A DNA stretch of 10,744 bases from assembly GCA_021405325.1 (NCBI GenBank), contig QWII01000176.1, positions 1 to 10,744 on the forward strand, written 5' to 3'. This DNA is from Caldilinea sp. CFX5. GTDB taxonomy: Bacteria; Chloroflexota; Anaerolineae; Caldilineales; Caldilineaceae. This document shows, piece by piece, positions 203 through 10,532 of the stretch (the stretch's first letter is position 1; every line of letters begins with the position of its first letter). The translations under genes were made by a program, and so were the position numbers. A model generated the notes under the pieces. It was given only the letters and a program-made list of their open reading frames with translations, made no database searches and had not been told where the DNA came from.

Positions 203-1018
203 TTATTCGCGCGGCGGCCCGGCTTTGATCCGTTCGATCTGCTCTTCGAGCGGGCCACGCGTCTCAAAAATGGCTTCAAACCACCAGGTCGCGCCGGCAG
301 CGGCATATTCACGCGCCAATGCGTTGTCGCCCGCTTTTGATGTGCCGTCAATGGCAACTTCAAAGGGTTCACTGCTGCTACGATATTGGCGGATCTGGGC
401 AACCTGGGCGGCAATCTGGGCCGGCGACTTAGTGACATTACACTGCTCGTCGATCACGCCCATGATCCAGCCATCCCAGCGGGCGGCGCGCCGCAAGGCC
501 GCCGGACTGTCGCCCCCAATCCAGACGGGAATGCGGGGGCGTTGCACCGGTGTCGGCAGAAAGCGCACTTGCTGCGCCTGGTAAAATTGCCCCTGGTGTG
601 TCACTTCTTCCCCAGACCAGAGTCGGGTGAGCAGGGTCAATCCTTCATCGGTCATGGCGGCGCGCGTCTTGGCGCTTCCCGGTTCACCAAAAGGCGTAAA
701 GTCGGAGGGAATGCCCAGCCCTGTGCCGAAGATCAAGCGCCCGCCACTCAGGAGATCGAGGCTGGTCATCTGGCGCGCCAGCAGATGGGGTCGATAGCGC
801 GGCAGCGGCGCCACGCCGGTGATCAGTTTCATCGACCGGGTCGCACTGGCGACGGCGGCCAGGGTAATCCACGGATCACCCACCGCCCAGGGGAAGACCA
901 GATGATCCCAAAGCCAGAGCCCCTGCCAGCCGGCAGCCTCGGCGATCTGCGCCACCTGCATTACTATACGGGGATCGCTGAAGCGACCAAAAGGAATTAT
1001 TTCAAGACCATAGCGCAT
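203..1018 (-). CDS. Luciferase-like (LLM class) flavin/F420-dependent oxidoreductase
   Basis: Predicted TIM-barrel oxidoreductase of the bacterial luciferase-like superfamily (PF00296), about 271 residues, likely cytosolic. These enzymes use reduced FMN or F420; the substrate cannot be told from sequence. Family signatures seen are an N-terminal MRYGLEI strand, AEAAGWQGLWLWDHL (about residues 27-41), the run from WITLAAVASATRSMKL to LARQMTSLDLLSGGRL (about 50-90) followed by GTGLG, and PVWIGG near the middle. The start is taken at the ATG at 1018 because GGGAG lies 8-9 nt upstream and the protein then begins with the usual first strand. A TTG 27 nt further upstream (1045) would run into the preceding gene. 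It is the last gene of a minus-strand unit, 20 bp after the methyltransferase-like gene. No C-terminal truncation is evident. Cofactor choice (FMN or F420) is undecided. Confidence 0.85.
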   Translation of the reverse strand: MRYGLEIIPFGRFSDPRIVMQVAQIAEAAGWQGLWLWDHLVFPWAVGDPWITLAAVASATRSMKLITGVAPLPRYRPHLLARQMTSLDLLSGGRLIFGTGLGIPSDFTPFGEPGSAKTRAAMTDEGLTLLTRLWSGEEVTHQGQFYQAQQVRFLPTPVQRPRIPVWIGGDSPAALRRAARWDGWIMGVIDEQCNVTKSPAQIAAQVAQIRQYRSSSEPFEVAIDGTSKAGDNALAREYAAAGATWWFEAIFETRGPLEEQIERIKAGPPRE

Positions 1019-1038
1019 CGTTTTCTCTCCCTTGCCAT

Positions 1039-1737
1039 TTACCAAACGCCGGGCAACAGCCGATAGCGAGTCTGCTGCATAAACTGCTCATAGCCCGGTA
1101 ATTCCGCTTGCAATGTGCGGTCTTCCCGCGCTGTGCGCCAGATTAGTAGCAAAGCGGCCAGCGCTTGTGGAATCAGCGCCCACACCGATCCCAAGATCAA
1201 CGGCGCGGCCAGACCAAAGAGAATGCCGCCGACATAGCCGGGATGGCGCACATAGCGATAGGGGCCGTCAGTACAAACCGTCTGCCCCCGGTCCAGTTGA
1301 ATGCGCACCACGCTGGAAAAGAAATGGTTCACATAGCGCGCCCAGAGGAAAATGCCCTGGCCGATCAGGTAGAGCAGAACGCCCAGCACATAACACCAGA
1401 CCGGCAAGGGGCCAGTCCAGCCAAAGCGCCCCACATCCAGTCCGGCCACCAACAAGGCAATCAGATACAAAGGCGTCGAGAGGGCGAAATAGAGGCCATC
1501 CCACCCTTTCATGCCGGCGCCGGGGCTTAACCGTTCCTCCACCAAGGTGGAATCTTGCGGCAAAATCAGCCACATCAACCCCATTGTGAGCAATACCAGC
1601 AGGAAGTAGAGCCAGCCTTGCCAATAATCCCACCGTCCGGCGCTGCCAAAGACGAGCAGCAGGACGGCAAGCATCCCTAAGACGGTGCGCATGATCACCC
1701 GCCATTGCAGGTTGTTCGTTTGTCGTGCAAGCACCAT
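1039..1737 (-). CDS. Isoprenylcysteine carboxyl methyltransferase-family membrane protein
   Basis: Integral membrane protein of about 232 residues related to the ICMT/PEMT superfamily (PF04140/PF04191), which uses SAM to methylate small or lipid-linked substrates in the membrane. About five hydrophobic segments are visible (roughly residues 16-33, 37-59, 81-103, 113-136 and 170-200). The family signature is present: YRYVRHPGYVGG at about 160-171, where RHPxY binds SAM. The acidic REDRTL segment (about 204-209) and the C-terminal YEQFMQQTRYRLLPG also fit. The start is the ATG at 1737, preceded by AGGAGG with a 5-nt spacer. A longer TTG-initiated reading (1830) would overlap the preceding gene and lacks support. 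It lies between a LiaF-like membrane protein (26-bp gap) and an oxidoreductase (20-bp gap), so the three are probably co-transcribed. The substrate is unknown; bacterial members are often annotated only as family proteins. Confidence 0.85.
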   Translation of the reverse strand: MVLARQTNNLQWRVIMRTVLGMLAVLLLVFGSAGRWDYWQGWLYFLLVLLTMGLMWLILPQDSTLVEERLSPGAGMKGWDGLYFALSTPLYLIALLVAGLDVGRFGWTGPLPVWCYVLGVLLYLIGQGIFLWARYVNHFFSSVVRIQLDRGQTVCTDGPYRYVRHPGYVGGILFGLAAPLILGSVWALIPQALAALLLIWRTAREDRTLQAELPGYEQFMQQTRYRLLPGVW

Positions 1738-1763
1738 AACGACCTCCTCTTCCCATTGACCAA

Positions 1764-2303
1764 TTAGCGCATGGCATTCCGCAGGAGCAGGAACAGGCCA
1801 AGCCCAATCAAGAGGGCCGGCCAGGCCCAACCGCCCAAGCCAAAACCGCTAATGCCAATCACCACTTCAAAGAAGATTGCGCCGACCGCGAAAATCACCA
1901 GGCCGATGGTCGCAAGCTGCTGGCCGGTGCGCTGCGCTGCCGGCTGCCCTTTGCGCGCGCCGTAGATCATCTCGCCGAGGCCGATGGCGGTAGGGGCCGC
2001 CAAGGCCCAAGCGTAGGCCCAGCTCGCCCAGTGGCCGGTCAAATTTTGATAGAAGAGCAATAGACCAACGGCGGTCACGACACTGCCCACAATGAGTAAC
2101 GGCTGATCGGCGGGGCTATCGCCGGCGAAACCCAACATAAAAAGGACGACACCCGGCACGATGATAAAAAAGGGCCATCCCCACACCCCAATATTGATCT
2201 GAAATAGTTGCCCGAACAGAAAAAGTAAGCCCAGGGCAATCATGAGAAAGCCCAAGAGTTTACCGGCATTCCCCTGAAATGATGGTTGAAGTTGTGGTGA
2301 CAT
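1764..2303 (-). CDS. Six-helix LiaF/DUF5668-like membrane protein
   Basis: Predicted membrane protein of 179 residues with about six hydrophobic helices (roughly 16-33, 37-59, 68-86, 92-115, 129-150 and 156-175). Segments such as IGVWGWPFFIIVPGVVLFMLG (in two pieces, about 38-58) and GGWAWPALLIGLGLFLLLR (about 157-175) match the WP-(L/F)-I-G-L pattern of LiaI/LiaF transmembrane regions and DUF5668-type proteins. The same pattern occurs once near each end, which suggests an internal duplication. The ATG at 2303 has GAGGAG about 9 nt upstream. It is the first gene of the minus-strand unit, ahead of the methyltransferase-like gene. Homologues in Firmicutes modulate cell-envelope stress responses, but this protein lacks the C-terminal cytoplasmic domain of LiaF, so a signalling role is not shown. 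Function unknown. Confidence 0.7.
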   Translation of the reverse strand: MSPQLQPSFQGNAGKLLGFLMIALGLLFLFGQLFQINIGVWGWPFFIIVPGVVLFMLGFAGDSPADQPLLIVGSVVTAVGLLLFYQNLTGHWASWAYAWALAAPTAIGLGEMIYGARKGQPAAQRTGQQLATIGLVIFAVGAIFFEVVIGISGFGLGGWAWPALLIGLGLFLLLRNAMR

Positions 2304-2506: not shown

Positions 2507-3709
2507 TTAGGCGGCAGCGCGTAACAGTGCCGCGTCCGTCGTTCGCTCCCACGGTAGATCGAGATCGAGCCGCCCCATGTGTCCATAGGCAGCCAGGCGA
2601 CCAAAAAAGCGCCCGTGGTTGATTTGCACACAATGGCGCAGGTTGAAGCGCTGCATGATCCCGCTGGGCCGAAAATCAAAATGATTGGCGACCAGTTGGG
2701 TCAACGCATCGTCGCTCACCGTGCCGCTGTCAAAGGTTTCCACGCGAATCCCCACCGGCTGCACCAGCCCGATGGAGTAGCTCAGTTGCACTTCACACTG
2801 CTCGGCCAGCCCGGCGGCGACCACATTCTTGGCGGCGTGACGGGCGGCGTAGGCGCTGATGCGGTCGATGCGCGTCGGATCTTTGCCGCTGAGCGCGGCG
2901 CCGCTGTGGCGTGAGTAGCTGCCGTAGGTGTCATCGCTGTTCTTACGCCCGGTCAAGCCGGCATGGAGCGTCGGCCCGCCTTCTAGGATCGGGCCTTCCG
3001 GGTTGATGTGGATGCGCGTGGCGGCGTCCGGTTGGATCGTCTCCTCCGCAAAGACCGGCTGAATTACCTGTTCGACAATGTCGTTATAGAGCTGTGTTGC
3101 CAGCGGTTGGTGACTGCGTTGGCTCGTCACCAGGCTGATGCTCTCAATGCGATAGGGGGTGTGGTCATGAAAGGCGACGCCGACCTGACATTTGCCATCG
3201 GGGGCGAGATAGGGCAAGGTCGTTTTGCGCACCGTATCTAGTTGGCGCACCAGCCGATGCGCCAGCCAGATCGGTAGGGGAATCAGCGCCGGCGATTGGG
3301 TGCAGGCAAAGCCAAAGACGGTGACACTCTCCTGCGCGCCGATCTGATCAAGCGCCTCCGCATCATTTTGCACACCATCCAGGCGGGGCAGCGGCTTGGC
3401 GAGGTCGCTCAGGTTGGTCATGATCGTGCAATTTTTGCCGTTAAAACTGCCCCGGTTGTAGCCCACCGCCAGGATCACCTCGCGCGCCGTGTTGGCAATA
3501 TCGACCACCGCGTCCGAAGCCGCTTTGACCGAAACAAAGAGGATGCCGGTCGAGACGGCGCACTCGGCCACCACCTGGGCATAGGCATCCTGCATGAGAT
3601 AGCGGTCGATCAACGAGTCGCTGATTTGGTCACAGAGCTTATCGGGGTGGCCTTCCGTCACCGATTCTGCGGTGAAGACATAGTCGGTTTTGCTCACGGG
3701 TTTATTCAT
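2507..3709 (-). CDS. Divergent S-adenosylmethionine synthetase (MetK) homologue
   Basis: Full-length MetK-fold protein (400 residues; E. coli MetK is 384). It should bind ATP with Mg2+ and K+ and cleave triphosphate. Visible landmarks are FTAESVTEGHPDK (12-24), DGKCQV (171-176), GLTGRK (251-256), the phosphate loop SGKDP (274-278), and the C-terminal YGHMGR and PWERT segments. By gapless local comparison with E. coli MetK, the ATP and phosphate residues are kept (H21, D23, K24, E49, D171, K173, R255, K256, K276, D277). The residues annotated as methionine contacts are changed: Glu56 to Lys62, Asp239 to His249, Lys270 to Arg280, and probably Gln99 to Asp. The GAGDQG motif reads GAQESV (124-129). 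The ATG at 3709 overlaps the ATPase stop (ATGAATAA) and is preceded by AGAGGG about 8 nt upstream, so it is likely translationally coupled to the pump. It may make SAM poorly, use another substrate, or act as a regulator. I give no symbol because it is probably not the housekeeping enzyme. Confidence 0.85.
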   Translation of the reverse strand: MNKPVSKTDYVFTAESVTEGHPDKLCDQISDSLIDRYLMQDAYAQVVAECAVSTGILFVSVKAASDAVVDIANTAREVILAVGYNRGSFNGKNCTIMTNLSDLAKPLPRLDGVQNDAEALDQIGAQESVTVFGFACTQSPALIPLPIWLAHRLVRQLDTVRKTTLPYLAPDGKCQVGVAFHDHTPYRIESISLVTSQRSHQPLATQLYNDIVEQVIQPVFAEETIQPDAATRIHINPEGPILEGGPTLHAGLTGRKNSDDTYGSYSRHSGAALSGKDPTRIDRISAYAARHAAKNVVAAGLAEQCEVQLSYSIGLVQPVGIRVETFDSGTVSDDALTQLVANHFDFRPSGIMQRFNLRHCVQINHGRFFGRLAAYGHMGRLDLDLPWERTTDAALLRAAA

Positions 3710-6700
3710 AGGGATTGCCCTCTGTTCTAGATGGCCGCTCCACCAGCTTCACTAGCTCACCAACCAGGAAAGGGACGCTGGCCGCCGCGGTCGTCACCGC
3801 CAGATCCAGCGGCCCCAGGGGCGTCGCCCCCAATATGGTGCGCAAGCCGGGTAGATAGGTCGCCAGCATTTGCAAAGTCAGCCCGCCGCCTACGGCCAGC
3901 GGCATGTACGGGTTGGGGGGCAGACCCGGCTGATCCCAGATGCTATACTTGCCGGAGCGACAGTTGAGCGAATGTAACAATTGAGCCGTGGTCAATGAGG
4001 TAAAAGCCATCGTACCGGCAGTCGGCCCCAAGCCGTAGCGCAACAGCCCCCAGCTATAAGCGGCCATCGTACTGGCGGTGATCAGCGTCCCTTCCAACCC
4101 AATCTGTTTGAGATCGCGTTGGGAGAACATGGGCGCTTGCGCGGGGCGCGGCGGGCGATCCATTACATCGGCCTCCGGCGGGTCGATGCTCAACGCCAGT
4201 TCGGGGAAGATGTCGGTGACCAGATTGATCCAGAGCAACTGCACCGGACTGAGCGGTTCGCCCAACCCCAACGAAGTGGCAGTCAGCGTCACCATGATCT
4301 CGCTGATGTTGCTGGAAAGAATAAAGTGAACCGCTTTGCGAATATCGGCATAGATCGTCCGCCCCTGCTCAATGGCGCTGACGATGGTCGCCAGGTTGTC
4401 ATCGCGGATGATGATGTCGGCCACCTCCTGCGCCACCTCGCTGCCGTCCTGGCCCATAGCGATGCCGATGTCGGCGGCGCGCAGGGCGGGGCCATCGTTG
4501 ACGCCATCACCGGTCATCGCCACCACATAGCCGGCATGTTGCAACGCCTGGACAATCTTGAGCTTGTGCGCCGGGCTGACACGGGAAAAGACATCAACGC
4601 GCTGGGCCAGACTGCGCAACAAGTCAGGAGCCAACTCGTCCAGTCGGTTCGAGTCGAGAATCTCCAACTCGCCGTTGCGGCTCAAGCCGATCTCCCTGGC
4701 AATAGCGTAGGCGGTGGCGCTCTGGTCGCCGGTGATCATGGTGGTGTGAATGCCGGCATGGTGGAAGTGGCCCATCAGGTCGGTCATACCCTGGCGTGGC
4801 GGATCGGCAATCCCGGCCAGCCCCACCCAGATCAGGTTGTTCTGGCGCTCCGGTTCGCTGTCCGCCGGCAGGTAGGCGACGCCAATCACGCGCAACGCCC
4901 GCCCCGCCATGCGCTCATTCTCGGTGGTGATTGCCAGGTGATCTTCTTGGGTAAGCGGCTGCACAAGGCCGGCGCGCAACTGTCGGTCGCACATGGCCAG
5001 CACCTCCGCCGGCCGCCCTTTGACCGCCAGGAGTTGCTCACCATTGGCGTCGTTGTGGAGCGTATCCATAAAGCTGCGCTGTTCGCTGCGCAAACGGGTG
5101 CGCATGAGCGGATGTTCGTGGCGCAGCCCAACCGCATCAACGCCGAGATCCAGCGCTGCTTGAACCAGGGCGGTTTCAGTCGGCGTCCCCTTTAGTTGCG
5201 GTTGTACAGCGGTGGCGTCAATCTCAGCTTCGCTGCACAACGCGGTCAGTTGCAGAAGTTTGGCTAACGCGGGGGGCAGGGCGCCGGCAAGGCGTTCTGT
5301 CCCCGACCAAAGGGCGGCGCCGTCGAGCCGATACAAGGTCATCTCGACATGGATGGCGACCAACGTCATGCGATTGCGGGTGATGGTGCCGGTCTTGTCC
5401 AGACAGACCACTTGCAGCGCGCCCAGCGTTTCAACGGCGGCCAGTTTGCGCACCAGCACCTGTTGCTGTTCGAGCCGGCGTAACCCCAGGGCCAGCGTCG
5501 TGGTTGCCACCGTGGGCAAGCCTTCGGGCACGGCGGCTACCGCCAGCGAAACCGCGGTGCGCAACATGGGCAGGAAGCCATTGCCGCGCAACAGGCCAAT
5601 GGCAAAGACGCCGCTACAGATCGCCAGCGTCCCCAGCACCAGTTGACTGCTCAAAAGGCGCAGTTGGCGTTGCAACGGGGTCTCCGGCTGCACTGTTTCG
5701 GCCAAAAGGCGTTGAATCAATCCGATTTCCGTTGCCACACCGGTCGTCACCACGATGGCCCGCCCGCTGCCGCCGGTGACAACCGTGCCGCGATAGGCCA
5801 TGTTGACCCGACTCCCCAGCGGAATGTCGATCTCGGTCAAGGTGTGGGGAAGCTTTTGCACCGGCACACTTTCTCCGGTCAGGGCGGACTCGTCAATGGT
5901 CAGCCGGTCGGCTTCCAGGAGACGCACATCGGCCGGCACATACATGCCCCGCTTAAGCAGCAACAGATCGCCCGGCACCAGCTCCTCGCCCTGAATCTCA
6001 AACTCGACACCGTCGCGCAGCACCAACGCCGTGGGGCGCAAGCCGCGGGTCAAGGCGGAAATGGTCTTTTCCGCCTTGCTTTCAGTGTAATAGCCAATGC
6101 CGGCATTGATAAAAACCACGCCCAGAATGACCACGGCATCGGCAACCCCGCCGGTGAGGAGCGACAAGAGCGCCGAGCCGCCTAACATCAGCACCGGCAG
6201 GCTTTTGAATTGTTCCGCAAAGATGGCAAAGGCGGAACGGGTCTCAGCGGCGGGGAGCGCATTGAGGCCATAGCGCTGGCGGCGCACTTCAATCGCTTGG
6301 GCATCCAGCCCGTAAGCCAGATTGGCCGTCAACACTTGGCAGACCCGCTGCGGCTCCAGCAGATGCCATTGTTCCGCCGGCTGGGCCGTTTGCAGGGGCA
6401 AGCCTTGCCGAATCCGACCGATCTGCAGGGTGATCGCTTCGCTGGAAAGCGACAGGTCAAAGACCACCACTACCGTCCCGGTCAACACATTCGCCGCCAC
6501 CCGTTGAACGCCGGGCAGCAGACGCAACCCCTGTTCCAACCGCCCCTTCTGTTGTTCATTGCGATAGAGGCCGACAACTTGGAGGCGAAGACGGCCAGGG
6601 GTTTGGTGAACCAGGACGATCCCGGTGAGATCAACGGCAACCGCTTCAGCCATCACAGGCGCCGGCGGCAGCACTTCACCGGTGATCGGTGGCGCGACCG

Positions 6701-7289
6701 GCGTCGCGCGGACAAGCGGGTGTGCCGGGACTAGACTACCCAGCGGCGGCGCGATCAACGGCTCCAGCGGCAGGGTGCGAGTGATGATATTGGCGGCGGA
6801 GATTTGCACCACATCTTGCCGCGCACCATCTGCGCTTTGGGTTTGGCGCAGCCGCAGCAGCAAGTCTTCGCGCACGAGAAACCAGCGCACCTGAATGTCC
6901 CCGCGTCGCAGCGTCACATCGCCCCGCTCATCCACGGTGAAGAGCAGGGTGCGACCCAAAACCAATTTAATGGCGCCAACCGGCGTGCGCTGGGATAGGG
7001 TTTGGGGCTGGGCAAAATGGAAGGCCAGGGTGGGTTGACCGGCCTGCTGCCCGGTTGTCACACTGTCGAGTGTCTCGACCACTAGGGGTGTCTGAAAGAG
7101 ATCATCAAAAAGCCGGCGCAGGTTATGTTTGTCCAACGCGGCGCGCCAGGCGCTCCCTTGAATCACGCGATTGGGCGAGATGCAGAGCGCGATAAAGAGA
7201 TGGCGCAACGTCCCGTGGTCGGCAAAGACGCCGGCAAAGAGGTCGTCCAATGCCTGTGCATCAAGCGTCAGCGGTTTTGTTTCGTTCAT
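3702..7289 (-). CDS. P2-type cation-transporting P-type ATPase with HMA2-like N-terminal extension
   Basis: ATP-driven inner-membrane cation pump of 1195 residues, about 300 longer than a standard bacterial P2A pump. Residues 1-215 are an unrecognised soluble region. Residues 222-290 are an HMA2-like ferredoxin-fold domain (TPGRLRLQVVGLYRN, GVQRVAANVLTG) with no CxxC. Residues 308-346 match the cation-ATPase N-terminal domain. Pump motifs are TGES (471-474), PEGL (588-591), phosphorylation motif DKTGT (D631), KGRP (757-760), TGDQ (853-856) and TGDGVND (926-932). About ten transmembrane helices are visible. The SERCA site-II ligands are all present (E589, N994, E997, N1022, T1025, D1026), while the M8 position equivalent to SERCA E908 is Q1103, as in one-site pumps. 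This fits Ca2+ or Mn2+ transport; the ion and direction are inferred. The ATG at 7289 lacks a clear Shine-Dalgarno sequence. It lies 86 bp after the HMA2-like gene, and its last codons overlap the MetK-like start. Confidence 0.92.
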   Translation of the reverse strand: MNETKPLTLDAQALDDLFAGVFADHGTLRHLFIALCISPNRVIQGSAWRAALDKHNLRRLFDDLFQTPLVVETLDSVTTGQQAGQPTLAFHFAQPQTLSQRTPVGAIKLVLGRTLLFTVDERGDVTLRRGDIQVRWFLVREDLLLRLRQTQSADGARQDVVQISAANIITRTLPLEPLIAPPLGSLVPAHPLVRATPVAPPITGEVLPPAPVMAEAVAVDLTGIVLVHQTPGRLRLQVVGLYRNEQQKGRLEQGLRLLPGVQRVAANVLTGTVVVVFDLSLSSEAITLQIGRIRQGLPLQTAQPAEQWHLLEPQRVCQVLTANLAYGLDAQAIEVRRQRYGLNALPAAETRSAFAIFAEQFKSLPVLMLGGSALLSLLTGGVADAVVILGVVFINAGIGYYTESKAEKTISALTRGLRPTALVLRDGVEFEIQGEELVPGDLLLLKRGMYVPADVRLLEADRLTIDESALTGESVPVQKLPHTLTEIDIPLGSRVNMAYRGTVVTGGSGRAIVVTTGVATEIGLIQRLLAETVQPETPLQRQLRLLSSQLVLGTLAICSGVFAIGLLRGNGFLPMLRTAVSLAVAAVPEGLPTVATTTLALGLRRLEQQQVLVRKLAAVETLGALQVVCLDKTGTITRNRMTLVAIHVEMTLYRLDGAALWSGTERLAGALPPALAKLLQLTALCSEAEIDATAVQPQLKGTPTETALVQAALDLGVDAVGLRHEHPLMRTRLRSEQRSFMDTLHNDANGEQLLAVKGRPAEVLAMCDRQLRAGLVQPLTQEDHLAITTENERMAGRALRVIGVAYLPADSEPERQNNLIWVGLAGIADPPRQGMTDLMGHFHHAGIHTTMITGDQSATAYAIAREIGLSRNGELEILDSNRLDELAPDLLRSLAQRVDVFSRVSPAHKLKIVQALQHAGYVVAMTGDGVNDGPALRAADIGIAMGQDGSEVAQEVADIIIRDDNLATIVSAIEQGRTIYADIRKAVHFILSSNISEIMVTLTATSLGLGEPLSPVQLLWINLVTDIFPELALSIDPPEADVMDRPPRPAQAPMFSQRDLKQIGLEGTLITASTMAAYSWGLLRYGLGPTAGTMAFTSLTTAQLLHSLNCRSGKYSIWDQPGLPPNPYMPLAVGGGLTLQMLATYLPGLRTILGATPLGPLDLAVTTAAASVPFLVGELVKLVERPSRTEGNPYE

Positions 7290-7350: not shown

Positions 7351-7379
7351 AAAATAAATCATAACCTGCATTCGTTCAA
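7351..7379 (-). promoter_or_regulatory. Possible internal promoter ahead of the ATPase gene
   Basis: On the minus strand, TTGAAC (7379-7374) and TATTTT (7356-7351) are separated by 17 bp in an AT-rich stretch. The box overlaps the stop codon of the HMA2-like gene and would give a leader of roughly 55 nt to the ATPase ATG. It matches sigma-70 consensus only moderately. Read-through from the upstream gene is the alternative. Confidence 0.3.
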
Positions 7380-7855
7380 GGTTTCCCTGGTCGTTGACTG
7401 CGCTGCAACATCAAAATGGTGGCAGCATACGAGAGCAGGGTGGCCGCCGGCGCCAGTACACGTCCACGGAAGAGCTGGATCACGGCGGCGCCCAGCAAGC
7501 CGACAAAGAGCAACGCTTGCAGATCAAAGGCGCCCTGGGTGAGACGGCGCACCATCTGATCCGCCCGGTCAAGTTGATCGCCCGCTGTGGTCAGCACCTG
7601 GGCTTGCGCCGGCGAGGCGGCGGCCAGTTGAAAGAGTTGTTGCTCCTCGGCAAAACGCAACAGATCCGCTTGCGCGCCGTTGTAATAGATCAGAAGACTG
7701 GCGGTGAGCGGATTGGTTTCCACCCGCGTCACCGACGCATGGGCGGCCAACGCCTTTTCCACCGCCGCAAAGTAAGCAGCATCGCCTTTGCGCTCGGCAA
7801 TATGCAGCCGGAGACGATCGGTCAGCGAATGCGAAAGATGAGCTACAGGTAACAT
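7376..7855 (-). CDS. Small HMA2-like protein with two C-terminal membrane helices
   Basis: Protein of 159 residues. The N-terminal part (about 5-75) has the beta-alpha-beta pattern of an HMA2-type heavy-metal-associated domain (LTDRLRLHIAERKG, VEKALAAHASVTRVETNPLTASLLIYYNG). It resembles the domain inside the neighbouring ATPase. The mature protein contains no cysteine, so classical CxxC metal binding is excluded. A helical linker (about 80-108) leads to two hydrophobic segments (about 112-131 and 133-150). The start is the ATG at 7855, with AGGA 7 nt upstream; an in-frame TTG at 7876 would add seven residues but its spacing to a purine-rich site is poor. It precedes the ATPase on the same strand by 86 bp. 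Similar proteins are commonly found beside ATPases of this type, so a partner or docking role for the pump is a reasonable inference but is not shown. Confidence 0.75.
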   Translation of the reverse strand: MLPVAHLSHSLTDRLRLHIAERKGDAAYFAAVEKALAAHASVTRVETNPLTASLLIYYNGAQADLLRFAEEQQLFQLAAASPAQAQVLTTAGDQLDRADQMVRRLTQGAFDLQALLFVGLLGAAVIQLFRGRVLAPAATLLSYAATILMLQRSQRPGKP

Positions 7856-7980
7856 GCATCGATCCTTGTTTTCCAATCAACCGCGGCCCCTTCCTGGAAG
7901 AGGCAACGACCGTCTACTCATACAAACCAGTTCCCGCCGCTTCCCGGAAGTAGCCATGCACCATTGTGCGCCATAGCCAA

Positions 7981-8276: not shown

Positions 8277-8573
8277 TCAGGCGTCCGTCGGTTTCCGGGT
8301 AAGTGGAATCGTGCGCGCCTCGCTGGTCGCTGCGCCATTTGGCTCCCCTTGCAGTTCCGCTTGCACCTCGGCAAAGATGTCGCTCGCCGATTCGACTAGA
8401 TGAGCGGCGACTTCGCGACTCCGTTCATAACCGTGGATAGCCGCCTTCATGCCCTGTTTCGTTAAGGGGCGCAGCAACGGGATAAAGAACGGCAGCAAAG
8501 TCCGCGCCGCCATTGTGCCGAGAATGCCGAGCAGAACCCCAGTCGCCAGACCGCGACGCCTTTCCATTGCCAT
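8277..8573 (-). CDS. Small DUF5132-like one-helix membrane protein
   Basis: Protein of 98 residues starting MAMERRR. A hydrophobic, glycine-containing segment (about residues 9-31, GLATGVLLGILGTMAARTLLPFF in two pieces) is followed by PLLRPLTKQGMKAAIHGYERSREVAAHLVESASDIFAEVQAEL. That helical pattern resembles DUF5132 proteins: a membrane helix, a Lys/Gly helix, then an amphipathic helix ending AEAQAEL-like. The start is the ATG at 8573, preceded by AAGGAAG with a short spacer; an ATG two codons later is also possible. The much longer open frame upstream (to 8768) lacks support and would enter the divergent promoter region. DUF5132 and the mycobacterial PacL (DUF1490) proteins are small one-helix partners often encoded with P-type ATPases. 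Here no Asp/His-rich metal tail is seen, so a chaperone role is not supported. Confidence 0.7.
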   Translation of the reverse strand: MAMERRRGLATGVLLGILGTMAARTLLPFFIPLLRPLTKQGMKAAIHGYERSREVAAHLVESASDIFAEVQAELQGEPNGAATSEARTIPLTRKPTDA

Positions 8574-8909
8574 AGTTGCTTCCTTTGTTACAAAATGCAG
8601 CCGATCCGCCCTTGCCCATAGGTAGGGCTGCCGGCAGACGCCGGGAACGCCGGCAGGATAGCCGCTGATTGCGCTATGCTGCCTACTATAGCGGGGAACG
8701 GTGGGGCGCGTATCGGCTAGGCGGCGGGATGTTGGCCTAGCCAGGGGGATAGGTTGCGGCATGTACACGGCAAGCGCCGCGCGGCTGAACAGTGTGAAAG
8801 GTTTTTGTCATATCTAGGTTCTATAGCAGTAGAAAGCCTGCGCAGCTTTTTCTCTCGGCATTATCCCTTGTATGCCGAGAGCTTTTCTTTACCAGAGGAG
8901 ATTGGTTCC
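8574..8909. other. Divergent intergenic region between DUF5132-like and peroxidase genes
   Basis: This 336-bp region must carry promoters in both directions, but I see no strong -35/-10 pair. TTGTCA at 8805-8810 has no good -10 at the right distance. A 7-bp GC-rich inverted repeat (TGCCGGC, 8629-8635 with 8649-8655, 13-nt loop) lies just upstream of the DUF5132-like gene. A hairpin nearer the peroxidase gene is listed separately. The open frame that runs from a TTG at 8754 into the peroxidase is considered non-coding before 8910. Confidence 0.5.
8852..8890 (+). promoter_or_regulatory. Terminator-like hairpin in the peroxidase leader
   Basis: CTCTCGGCAT (8852-8861) pairs perfectly with ATGCCGAGAG (8872-8881) around a 10-nt loop and is followed by CTTTTCTTT. 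This has the form of a rho-independent terminator but sits 28 bp before the peroxidase ATG and 13 bp before its GAGGAG site. It could attenuate transcription, mask or present the ribosome binding site, or end a short leader transcript. No competing anti-terminator stem is obvious. Confidence 0.5.
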
Positions 8910-10532
8910 ATGCTGAAACAAGCCATTGGTCACGGCGGCCTCTTCCTGCGCAAAGCCAAACGCAAAACCCGCCCCCCGTCCTCAGTTCATCATACACATA
9001 ACGGCGCCGGTCATACCGACCCGGCCGGCCCGGTCAACCCGCCGGCGCCCCAGCCCCAGAGTGGGAGCTTTGCCTATCTCTTCCCGGAGCTGGTGGCCGA
9101 CCCGCGAAATACCTTGCCGGTCGGCGCCGTGACGATTGAAGCGTTGCGTGCATTGGGCGCCGCGATGGCGGAAGCGCAATCGAGCCTGCCGGCGACGGCC
9201 ATCCCCGCCGGCTACACCTACTTCGGGCAGTTTGTCGATCACGACATCACCAAGCAGAATGTCGCCCCGCAGGATCAACATCTCTTTGCCATTACCGATG
9301 ACGATTTTGCGCCCTTGACGGTGGAGCAGATCCGCACCCGGTTGATCAATGAGCGCACGGCCCCCTTTGATCTCGACAGTTTATATGGCAAGCCGGCGCG
9401 GCGCCGGGGCGCCAAGATGGTGCTGGGGCCAAATGAGCAAGCGTTGCCCAACGACGCGCCACACAATGCTTTGCCGCCGGGCAAAGATCCGGCCAACAAT
9501 GATGTACCACGAGCGCCCGTTGGTCATCGCCGCTTCAAGCCCGGTCAGGCGTTGATCGGCGACCCGCGCAATGATGAGAATCTGATCATCAGCCAGATGC
9601 AGGTGGCCTTTCTCAAGTTTCATAATCGCCTGGTAGAGACACAGGGCCTCACCTTCCAACAGGCGGCGCAAGCGGTGCGGCAGCACTATCAAGCCGTGGT
9701 GATCTTTGATTACCTGCGCCGTCTGCTGGAGCCGGCGGTGGTCGATCAGGTGCTGGCGAGCAATTACTTTTTCCGCCCGTTGCCGCCGACCGGCCTCTTT
9801 ATGCCGTTGGAATTTAGCGTGGCCGCCTTCCGGTTTGGCCATAGCATGGTGCGCCCGGCCTACCGCTACAATATGAACTTTGCTACGGCCCCTCTGGATG
9901 ATCTCTTCAAATTCACGGCCTTTAGCGGTCAGATCGGCCAACCGGCGGCCGATGGCAGCATCCCCTTGACCACCGTGCCGCGCAACTGGATCATCCAGTG
10001 GGAGAATTTTCTGCCGTTTCCTGATGCCAACGCACCGCAGCCGGCCATGCCGCTTGACACGGCGCTGGCGCTGCCGCTGGCCGAACTGCCGGGGCAAGAA
10101 AAGATCATGGCGCGGCTGGCGCAACGCAACCTGCTGCGCGGCTATCTGCTCAACCTGCCGACCGGCCAGAGCGTGGCCCGCACCATCGGCGGTGACGCCG
10201 CCGTGTTAAGCCGCGCCGCGATGTTGCGCGCCGCCAATCCCGCCGACTGGCAGGTTTTGCAAGCCTATCCCTTCCTGCTGGAACGCACGCCGCTCTGGTA
10301 TTACATCCTGCTGGAGGCCAAAGCGCATCACAACGGTCAACGGCTGGGGCTGGTGGGCAGCACGATTGTCGCCGAAACGATCATCGGTCTGATCCGCCAG
10401 AGCAAAAATTCGATCTTGCAAGATCCAACCTGGCAACCGACCCTGGGCGCCGGCTACCCCGTCAACCGCAAACAGCTTGAACTGCACCACCTGATCGAGT
10501 TTGCCGGGGTGGGGCCGGTGGTGGATGGATAG
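8910..10532 (+). CDS. Heme peroxidase of the animal-peroxidase superfamily
   Basis: Predicted heme enzyme of 540 residues that uses hydrogen peroxide to oxidise organic or halide substrates (animal haem peroxidase family, PF03098, bacterial branch). Visible landmarks are the distal site YFGQFVDHD (about 104-112; distal His 111, with the neighbouring Asp being the usual ester-link position), GDPRNDEN (about 217-224, catalytic Arg 220 and Glu 223), LKFHNRL (about 235-241), and proximal FRFGHSMVRPAYR (His 311). The C-terminal segments RNLLRGYLLNLPTGQSVA and WYYILLEA...LGLVGSTIVAE are typical of bacterial members. The start is the ATG at 8910 with GAGGAG 9 nt upstream; an upstream TTG at 8754 would cross the leader hairpin. 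No signal peptide is seen, so a cytosolic location is likeliest unless it is exported by a non-classical route. It is transcribed away from the ATPase cluster and ends just before a strong terminator. The substrate is unknown. Confidence 0.9.
   Translation: MLKQAIGHGGLFLRKAKRKTRPPSSVHHTHNGAGHTDPAGPVNPPAPQPQSGSFAYLFPELVADPRNTLPVGAVTIEALRALGAAMAEAQSSLPATAIPAGYTYFGQFVDHDITKQNVAPQDQHLFAITDDDFAPLTVEQIRTRLINERTAPFDLDSLYGKPARRRGAKMVLGPNEQALPNDAPHNALPPGKDPANNDVPRAPVGHRRFKPGQALIGDPRNDENLIISQMQVAFLKFHNRLVETQGLTFQQAAQAVRQHYQAVVIFDYLRRLLEPAVVDQVLASNYFFRPLPPTGLFMPLEFSVAAFRFGHSMVRPAYRYNMNFATAPLDDLFKFTAFSGQIGQPAADGSIPLTTVPRNWIIQWENFLPFPDANAPQPAMPLDTALALPLAELPGQEKIMARLAQRNLLRGYLLNLPTGQSVARTIGGDAAVLSRAAMLRAANPADWQVLQAYPFLLERTPLWYYILLEAKAHHNGQRLGLVGSTIVAETIIGLIRQSKNSILQDPTWQPTLGAGYPVNRKQLELHHLIEFAGVGPVVDG

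Follow-up and report, generated by a model that had tools for sequence, protein, structure and literature searches.

A MetK-fold paralogue family with a rewritten methionine pocket, linked to a P2A-type cation ATPase

MetK2, as we call the protein described here, is a paralogue of S-adenosylmethionine (SAM) synthetase that keeps the fold and much of the catalytic centre of MetK, has a rewritten methionine pocket, and is encoded directly behind a P-type cation ATPase of one particular subfamily. We hold with moderate confidence that it stands for a distinct and unnamed paralogue family that does not make SAM and that works with this dedicated P2A pump. The gene lies in a 10,744-nucleotide stretch of Caldilinea sp. 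CFX5 DNA (the window), of which the following features are needed here.

2507 to 3709, minus strand: MetK-fold paralogue MetK2, 400 aa, ATG start
3702 to 3709, minus strand: 8 bases shared by the end of the ATPase gene and the start of MetK2
3702 to 7289, minus strand: P2A (PMR1/SPCA/LMCA1-like) cation ATPase, 1195 aa, assigned from Pfam, NCBIfam and motifs

Only the minus strand encodes MetK2; the plus strand in frame from 2507 is interrupted by stops and is not an ORF. Pfam finds the three MAT domains S-AdoMet_synt N, M and C (PF00438, PF02772 and PF02773) in order, and the protein scores 348.6 bits against TIGR01034, the NCBI metK equivalog, whose cut-off is 309.4, so that automatic annotation would name the gene metK. 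AlphaFold2 predicts a MAT fold, with a mean pLDDT of 88.5 from 78 sequences and of 83.5 from 29; certainty in the 78-sequence model is lowest at residues 251–254 and the first five. All 50 Foldseek matches listed for the MetK2 model are MAT entries (TMq 0.82–0.87). Scans of the window for tRNA and Rfam families gave no match above threshold, and thus no SAM riboswitch was detected in it.

The departures from canonical MetK lie where methionine is held. We compared MetK2 with E. coli MetK in UniProt-style numbering (Met = 1). A first-pass annotation of this DNA had read Glu56, Asp239 and Lys270 as Lys62, His249 and Arg280 and the GAGDQG loop as GAQESV, with GHPDK, DGK, GLTGRK and SGKDP retained, and our alignments agree on all of these points. 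They do not bear out its pairing of Gln99 with Asp, placing Leu103 there instead. The pocket positions Glu56, Gln99, Asp239 and Lys270 are then Lys, Leu, His and Arg, with basic residues standing where the acidic ones bound methionine, and the description of the methionine pocket as rewritten is upheld. In the numbering of the window protein, the residues concerned are as follows.

Changed, methionine pocket: Lys62, His249, Arg280, Leu273
Kept: His21, Asp23, Glu49, Asp171, Lys173, Arg255, Lys256, Lys276, Asp282

In E. coli numbering, the window protein keeps His15 (catalytic), Asp17 and Asp272 (Mg), Glu43 (K+) and Asp164, as well as the phosphate ligands Lys166, Arg245, Lys246 and Lys266; the Mg, K+ and triphosphate roles follow UniProt-style annotation. 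Altered are Asp239, Asp119, Arg230 and Phe231, the last being Ile. PMC3853416 and PMC1282579 name residues that bind the amino and carboxyl groups of methionine at the positions that the first-pass annotation had called methionine contacts. In mature numbering, which is one lower than ours, the former has the amino group bound by Asp238 and Glu55 and the carboxyl group by Gln98 and Lys269, and Gln98, Asp238 and Glu55 are methionine contacts also in the latter. PMC3853416 also makes His14 the presumed catalytic acid, stacks Phe230 on the adenine, has Asp163 and Asp238 hold the ribose hydroxyls, and describes the counterpart of Asp238 as retained in the archaeal structures compared, at only ~20% identity. 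Measured against a SAM synthetase, MetK2 has the catalytic, metal and triphosphate residues in place but lacks the methionine contacts and, with Asp164 retained, part of the adenosine contacts. With the methionine half rewritten, the triphosphate/metal half kept and the adenosine half mixed, the earlier description of the ATP site as intact was too strong: it is right for the phosphate and metal side and wrong for the ribose and adenine side, which is altered.

This pattern holds across the family. We counted residues in 178 paralogue rows (the query, 120 database proteins and 57 locus translations, in which the same gene can occur more than once with differing ends) and in canonical rows from which those of 360 aa or fewer had been dropped. 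Position 239 is His in 178/178 paralogue rows and Asp in 57/57 canonical ones; position 270 is Arg in 178/178 versus Lys in 56/56 (with one gap); and position 263 is Leu in 178/178 versus Phe in 55/56. The invariance at 239 and 270 exceeds chance by a wide margin. At position 56, Lys or Arg occurs in 176 of the 178 paralogue rows, versus Glu in 52/57 and Gln in 5/57 canonical rows, the latter five being archaeal-titled loci. Because of that Gln, Glu56 alone is not diagnostic. Gln99 is lost in most MetK2 rows. On the side that is kept, His15 and Asp17 are present in 176/176 paralogue rows (two rows are cut before them), Glu43, Arg245, Lys246 and Lys266 in 178/178, and Asp272 and Asp164 in 177/178 each. 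Phe231 is more labile, kept in 102/178 and replaced by V, I, L, M or Y in 72/178. Clustering the paralogue rows at 98, 90 and 75% identity, which leaves 156, 116 and 47 rows, does not change the residue pattern; at 75%, His239 and Arg270 are found in 47/47 paralogues, set against Asp and Lys in 26/26 canonical rows.

One triphosphate ligand does not follow the rule. The window protein has Lys166, but 25 of the 178 paralogue rows have another residue there, and all 16 Methylococcales-side rows checked have Thr. This argues against unchanged catalysis in those members, and triphosphate chemistry may be weakened or gone in part of the family. The Methylococcales copies (e.g. L009, L012 and L014) have this Thr, and several rows read SGKGP or SGKSP in place of SGKDP.

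A phylogeny of MetK proteins, which the first-pass annotation had proposed as a check, places the window protein inside a separate clade. Maximum-likelihood analysis of 72 rows separates 47 paralogues from 25 canonical MetKs across a single branch supported at 100/100. The best 120 homologues listed, from 93 to 56% identity, all carry His239 and Arg270, and identity between MetK2 and bacterial MetK is ~40%. With a profile of the paralogues, full-length MetK2 scored 533–701 bits in 14 genomes and canonical MetK 342–431 bits; score decided which rows were taken as paralogues, and the distribution searches applied a profile E-value limit of 1e-140 or 1e-130. MetK2 never stands in for canonical metK in the related genomes tested: it is the sole metK-type copy in none of 20, and canonical metK is found besides it in 20/20 with the metK model (the match in G020 covers part of the model), as well as in 12/12 genomes with full-length MetK2, eight of which are shared with the first set. 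The genome of locus L005 (G005) holds a third MetK, at L081 (C49:11139-12290), which falls on the canonical side on a very long branch.

The lineage is spread over several phyla and is sparse within them. With the centre genome of each search counted, MetK2 occurs in 10/400 genomes in the phylum of a Roseiflexus genome and 2/398 in the phylum of a Methylomonas genome (in both, scoring stopped at four candidates per genome, and the counts may be low), in 8/81 in the family of that Methylomonas genome, in 14/148 in the phylum of a Thermodesulfovibrionales genome, and in 10/148 in the phylum of a genome titled Deltaproteobacteria. Further named matches come from Nostoc, other cyanobacteria and a Trueperaceae bacterium. 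Among plasmid records (30 of 166 and 6 of 168 listed), matches do not exceed 51% identity and bear ordinary metK names or none; one plasmid record beyond the matches listed has a place of 60–80% identity. MetK2 is under strong purifying selection, as judged from sequence comparison: dN/dS is 0.02–0.09 in 10 pairs, values that are rough because dS exceeds 1 in five of them, and the pair of the window with L001 is saturated and yields no value.

By its motifs, the partner gene encodes a P2A calcium-type ATPase, and transport of Ca2+/Mn2+ is itself predicted. The window pump, whose closest solved relatives are SPCA1 and LMCA1, carries DKTGT, TGES, TGDGVND, PEGLP, SNISE in M5 and NLVTD in M6, and an HMA_2 domain lies in its N-terminal extension. 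Across 30 aligned pumps, DKTGT, TGES, TGDG(V/I)ND, PEGLP (M4) and N..(T/S)D (M6) are found in 30/30 and the M5 pattern N.SE in 29/30; the N-terminal part of all 30 also carries a basic GRxR motif. Pfam places HMA_2 in the N-terminal region of all three family pumps scanned (window, L055 and L009). The window pump scores 625.9 against the PMR1 equivalog, below its cut-off of 798.3.

The linkage of the two genes, which the first-pass annotation missed, is constant in every copy compared that has upstream sequence. The 8-base overlap in the window suggests translational coupling. In one set of 24 loci, 23 have the pump gene directly before MetK2 and in the same orientation, and the 24th begins at the MetK2 gene at a contig edge. 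Of 43 loci in a second set, 41 have it, and the other two begin inside MetK2, also at contig edges. The sets share 11 genes, which gives a pump upstream in 53 of 56 distinct copies outside the cyanobacteria; every such copy with upstream sequence (53/53) is preceded by the pump, with zero exceptions. In 33 of 37 locus rows MetK2 starts between −11 and +25 nt from the ATPase stop, so that the genes mostly overlap or abut. The remaining four comprise spacings of 72, 206 and 306 nt and one row without a start near the aligned beginning, and the pump and MetK2 tblastn matches in L122 and L123 lie ~600 nt apart. Among the pumps, that of L019 reads as two overlapping ORFs and that of L060 ends 206 nt early; L012 and L212 are one place, counted twice in the 37-row spacing, in the pump alignment and in the 33-locus clustering described below.

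Seen from the pump, the association is strong and not complete. Among 301 genomes of the Roseiflexus phylum, six encode a pump of 55–58% identity aligned from the N-terminal extension (with at most two candidates per genome scored, this count may be low), and all six have MetK2; the next pumps listed reach 44% identity at most, starting no earlier than residue 272. Among the 148 Nitrospirota-side genomes, a pump of the MetK2-linked type (at least 45% identity) is encoded in 16, of which 14 have MetK2 at the profile limit, the next pumps having at most 40% identity and beginning at residue 60 or later. In G851 the pump gene runs off the end of its contig, and another contig opens with a fragment of MetK2 that carries His239, Leu263 and Arg270. 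The exception among the 16 is G888, where the pump is present and MetK2 absent. Its pump (locus L211), at 45% identity to that of L055 and with HMA_2/DUF5132-type neighbours, offers a natural control for what MetK2 contributes. Further away, a distant pump (41.6%) on a Microvirga megaplasmid has no MetK2 beside it. By this genomic evidence, MetK2 accompanies the pump, but the wider pump family is not always dependent on MetK2. The correlation between MetK2 distances and pump distances is 0.96 (35 rows), a value that no permutation out of 2000 reached. In 16 genomes, however, MetK2 distances also correlate with those of canonical MetK (0.91, versus 0.98 with the pump), and in nine Methylococcales the values are 0.94 and 0.97. 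The correlation therefore mostly reflects shared descent and is weak as evidence of co-evolution.

The remaining genes around MetK2 are less constant.

7376 to 7876, minus strand: single-domain HMA_2 protein, 166 aa, PF19991, upstream of the pump
8277 to 8768, minus strand: DUF5132 protein, ORF of 163 aa with the true start probably further in, PF17195
1764 to 2303, minus strand: LiaF-TM protein, downstream of MetK2 (Pfam/NCBIfam)
1039 to 1830, minus strand: ICMT/PEMT-like membrane methyltransferase, downstream of MetK2 (Pfam/NCBIfam)
203 to 1045, minus strand: F420-type LLM oxidoreductase, downstream of MetK2 (Pfam/NCBIfam)

A third constant partner was sought over 33 loci by single-linkage BLAST clustering, and no cluster was found in all of them. 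The HMA_2-type cluster occurs in 25/33 (at any position in the locus) and the DUF5132 cluster in 14/33, with only some members of either verified by Pfam; CorA appears in three loci and a Na/Ca exchanger in four. The clustering missed MetK2 in L197, L198, L199 and L201, where tblastn was used as a re-check; L211 is truly without it. The recurrent neighbours point to divalent-cation handling, the particular ion not being fixed by them. None of the three downstream genes shared a cluster with a gene from another locus, and a link to the local SAM-dependent methyltransferase was set aside for that reason. On the strand opposite to the pump operon, an animal-haem-peroxidase-like protein is encoded at 8754-10532 (plus strand; PF03098, E 8.8e-14), with no NCBIfam match. 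The Microvirga locus (L215, Microvirga sp. VF16 megaplasmid) has HMA_2 proteins and, upstream of its MetK2-less pump, two CYTH genes at 2716-3456 and 3578-4327 on the plus strand. The CYTH domain is a triphosphate-tunnel fold. Across 63 family locus records, many of which overlap and some of which have short flanks, searches with two CYTH queries brought up no relative, and the lead toward a triphosphatase was dropped, as it came from this one locus.

Several readings other than a pump partner could be entertained. That the gene is an artefact, through pseudogene formation, misassembly or chance divergence, has a negligible chance of being right: a 93% identical protein (P0001) lies on other contigs, dN/dS is low in relatives (0.02–0.09), and the MetK2 rows of the distribution searches contain zero internal stops. 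These refute it, and no support for it was found. The first-pass suggestion that this is not an ordinary SAM synthetase stands as a prediction from sequence, since with the methionine pocket rewritten the ordinary activity is very unlikely. An isozyme that still makes SAM through an altered pocket chemistry could appeal to the TIGR01034 cut-off, which MetK2 passes, and to the intact fold and catalytic His. It is nevertheless extremely improbable, because both amino-group binders (Glu56 and Asp239) are replaced, as is Gln99 in most rows, because the archaeal MATs compared in PMC3853416 retain the Asp, and because no related MetK2 genome tested lacks a canonical metK. It is also highly unlikely that MetK2 is a dead paralogue that regulates canonical MetK through mixed dimers, the ATPase link being incidental. 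MAT active sites do lie at the dimer interface and take residues from both subunits, according to PMC1282579, but the rewritten pocket has key residues that do not vary, and linkage to one ATPase subfamily has no exception where it is visible.

Two enzymatic readings deserve more weight. MetK2 could be only a tripolyphosphatase/ATPase that kept the second half-reaction of MetK and lost the first, for example to clear tripolyphosphate near the pump. The retained Mg, K and most phosphate ligands would suit such an activity, as would the two CYTH-domain genes upstream of the ATPase in the Microvirga locus that has no MetK2. A plain triphosphatase would not need the invariant residues at 239 and 270 or the near-invariant one at 56, however, and Lys166 is lost in 25/178 rows; moreover, the CYTH case is a single one (Microvirga), with none in the 63 family locus records. 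We consider this reading decidedly improbable. A serious rival, if still an unlikely one, is an enzyme for which ATP serves as adenosyl donor to a different, anionic nucleophile, or one that supplies a product which the pump system exports or uses. His15, Mg and most triphosphate ligands are kept and the pocket is invariantly rewritten, as would be expected for a changed second substrate. Against it, the loss of Asp239 and the variability of Phe231 (72/178) argue against precise positioning of adenosine, and in its residues the linked pump matches a Ca-type ATPase rather than an organic-solute transporter.

We return to MetK2 as a pump partner. Invariant pocket residues, together with kept Mg, K and most triphosphate ligands, indicate that selection maintains a specific two-ligand site, and such a site with a fixed pump partner makes a partner that senses or processes a triphosphate and an anionic ligand the likeliest case, as we infer. 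MetK2 would still bind Mg-triphosphate, as ATP or tripolyphosphate, with K+, and the former methionine pocket (His249, Arg280 and Lys62) would hold a different, probably anionic, ligand. Acting as a co-translated cytosolic partner of the pump, the protein could use these two ligands to regulate Ca-type transport or to run a small reaction tied to the pump. Linkage alone cannot separate a regulator from an enzyme; on the sequence evidence as a whole, we prefer a ligand-gated pump partner first and an alternative adenosyl- or triphosphate-processing enzyme second. The fullest form of the proposal, in which the MAT fold has become a cytosolic subunit dedicated to a P-type ATPase, gating Ca-type transport by Mg-ATP or tripolyphosphate, K+ and a new anionic ligand, is put forward tentatively. 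Some observations count against the preferred reading: the NCBI equivalog model still names MetK2 metK, above its cut-off; Lys166 is lost in 25/178 rows; the pump occurs without MetK2 in G888 and, distantly, in Microvirga; and the genes are 72, 206 and 306 nt apart in three of 37 rows and ~600 nt apart in L122/L123.

SAM synthetase is usually regarded as a strongly conserved enzyme of single function, and the family model labels MetK2 genes metK. Given a pocket rewrite that is invariant throughout the clade and a fixed genomic partner, these genes are probably mis-annotated. If the preferred reading is right, P-type ATPases would have in MetK2 a partner of a new kind, and the family suggests that an old metabolic enzyme may have come to serve an ion pump, with a testable connection of divalent-cation pumping to nucleotide or phosphate status. 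To our knowledge, no ion-transport role has previously been described for the MAT fold. Among the matches listed from the open-access full-text literature, a body that leaves most subscription journals outside, no description of this MetK paralogue family or of its link to a P-type ATPase was found.

The comparison with known systems is thus one of shared parts in a different arrangement. With bacterial MetK/MAT (EC 2.5.1.6), MetK2 has in common the three-domain fold, the catalytic His, the Mg/K ligands and most of the triphosphate Arg and Lys residues. It differs in Asp239 to His, Lys270 to Arg, Glu56 to Lys or Arg and Phe263 to Leu, in the mostly missing Gln99 and the missing GAGDQG loop, and in being a separate clade, a second gene besides canonical metK, and linked to a P-type ATPase. 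The neighbouring pump shares the P-type core and Ca-site motifs of SPCA1/PMR1, Listeria LMCA1 and SERCA; unlike them, it has an HMA_2 N-terminal extension in the three members scanned and a PMR1 score below the cut-off, and its partner here is MetK2, which only G888 lacks among the close members. HMA_2 (PF19991) presumably resembles the CoBaHMA family, which was described together with calcyanin, a calcium-carbonate protein; the likeness is one of domain, and to this group the pumps are tied by the basic GRxR motif common to all 30 and by the HMA_2-type proteins encoded nearby.
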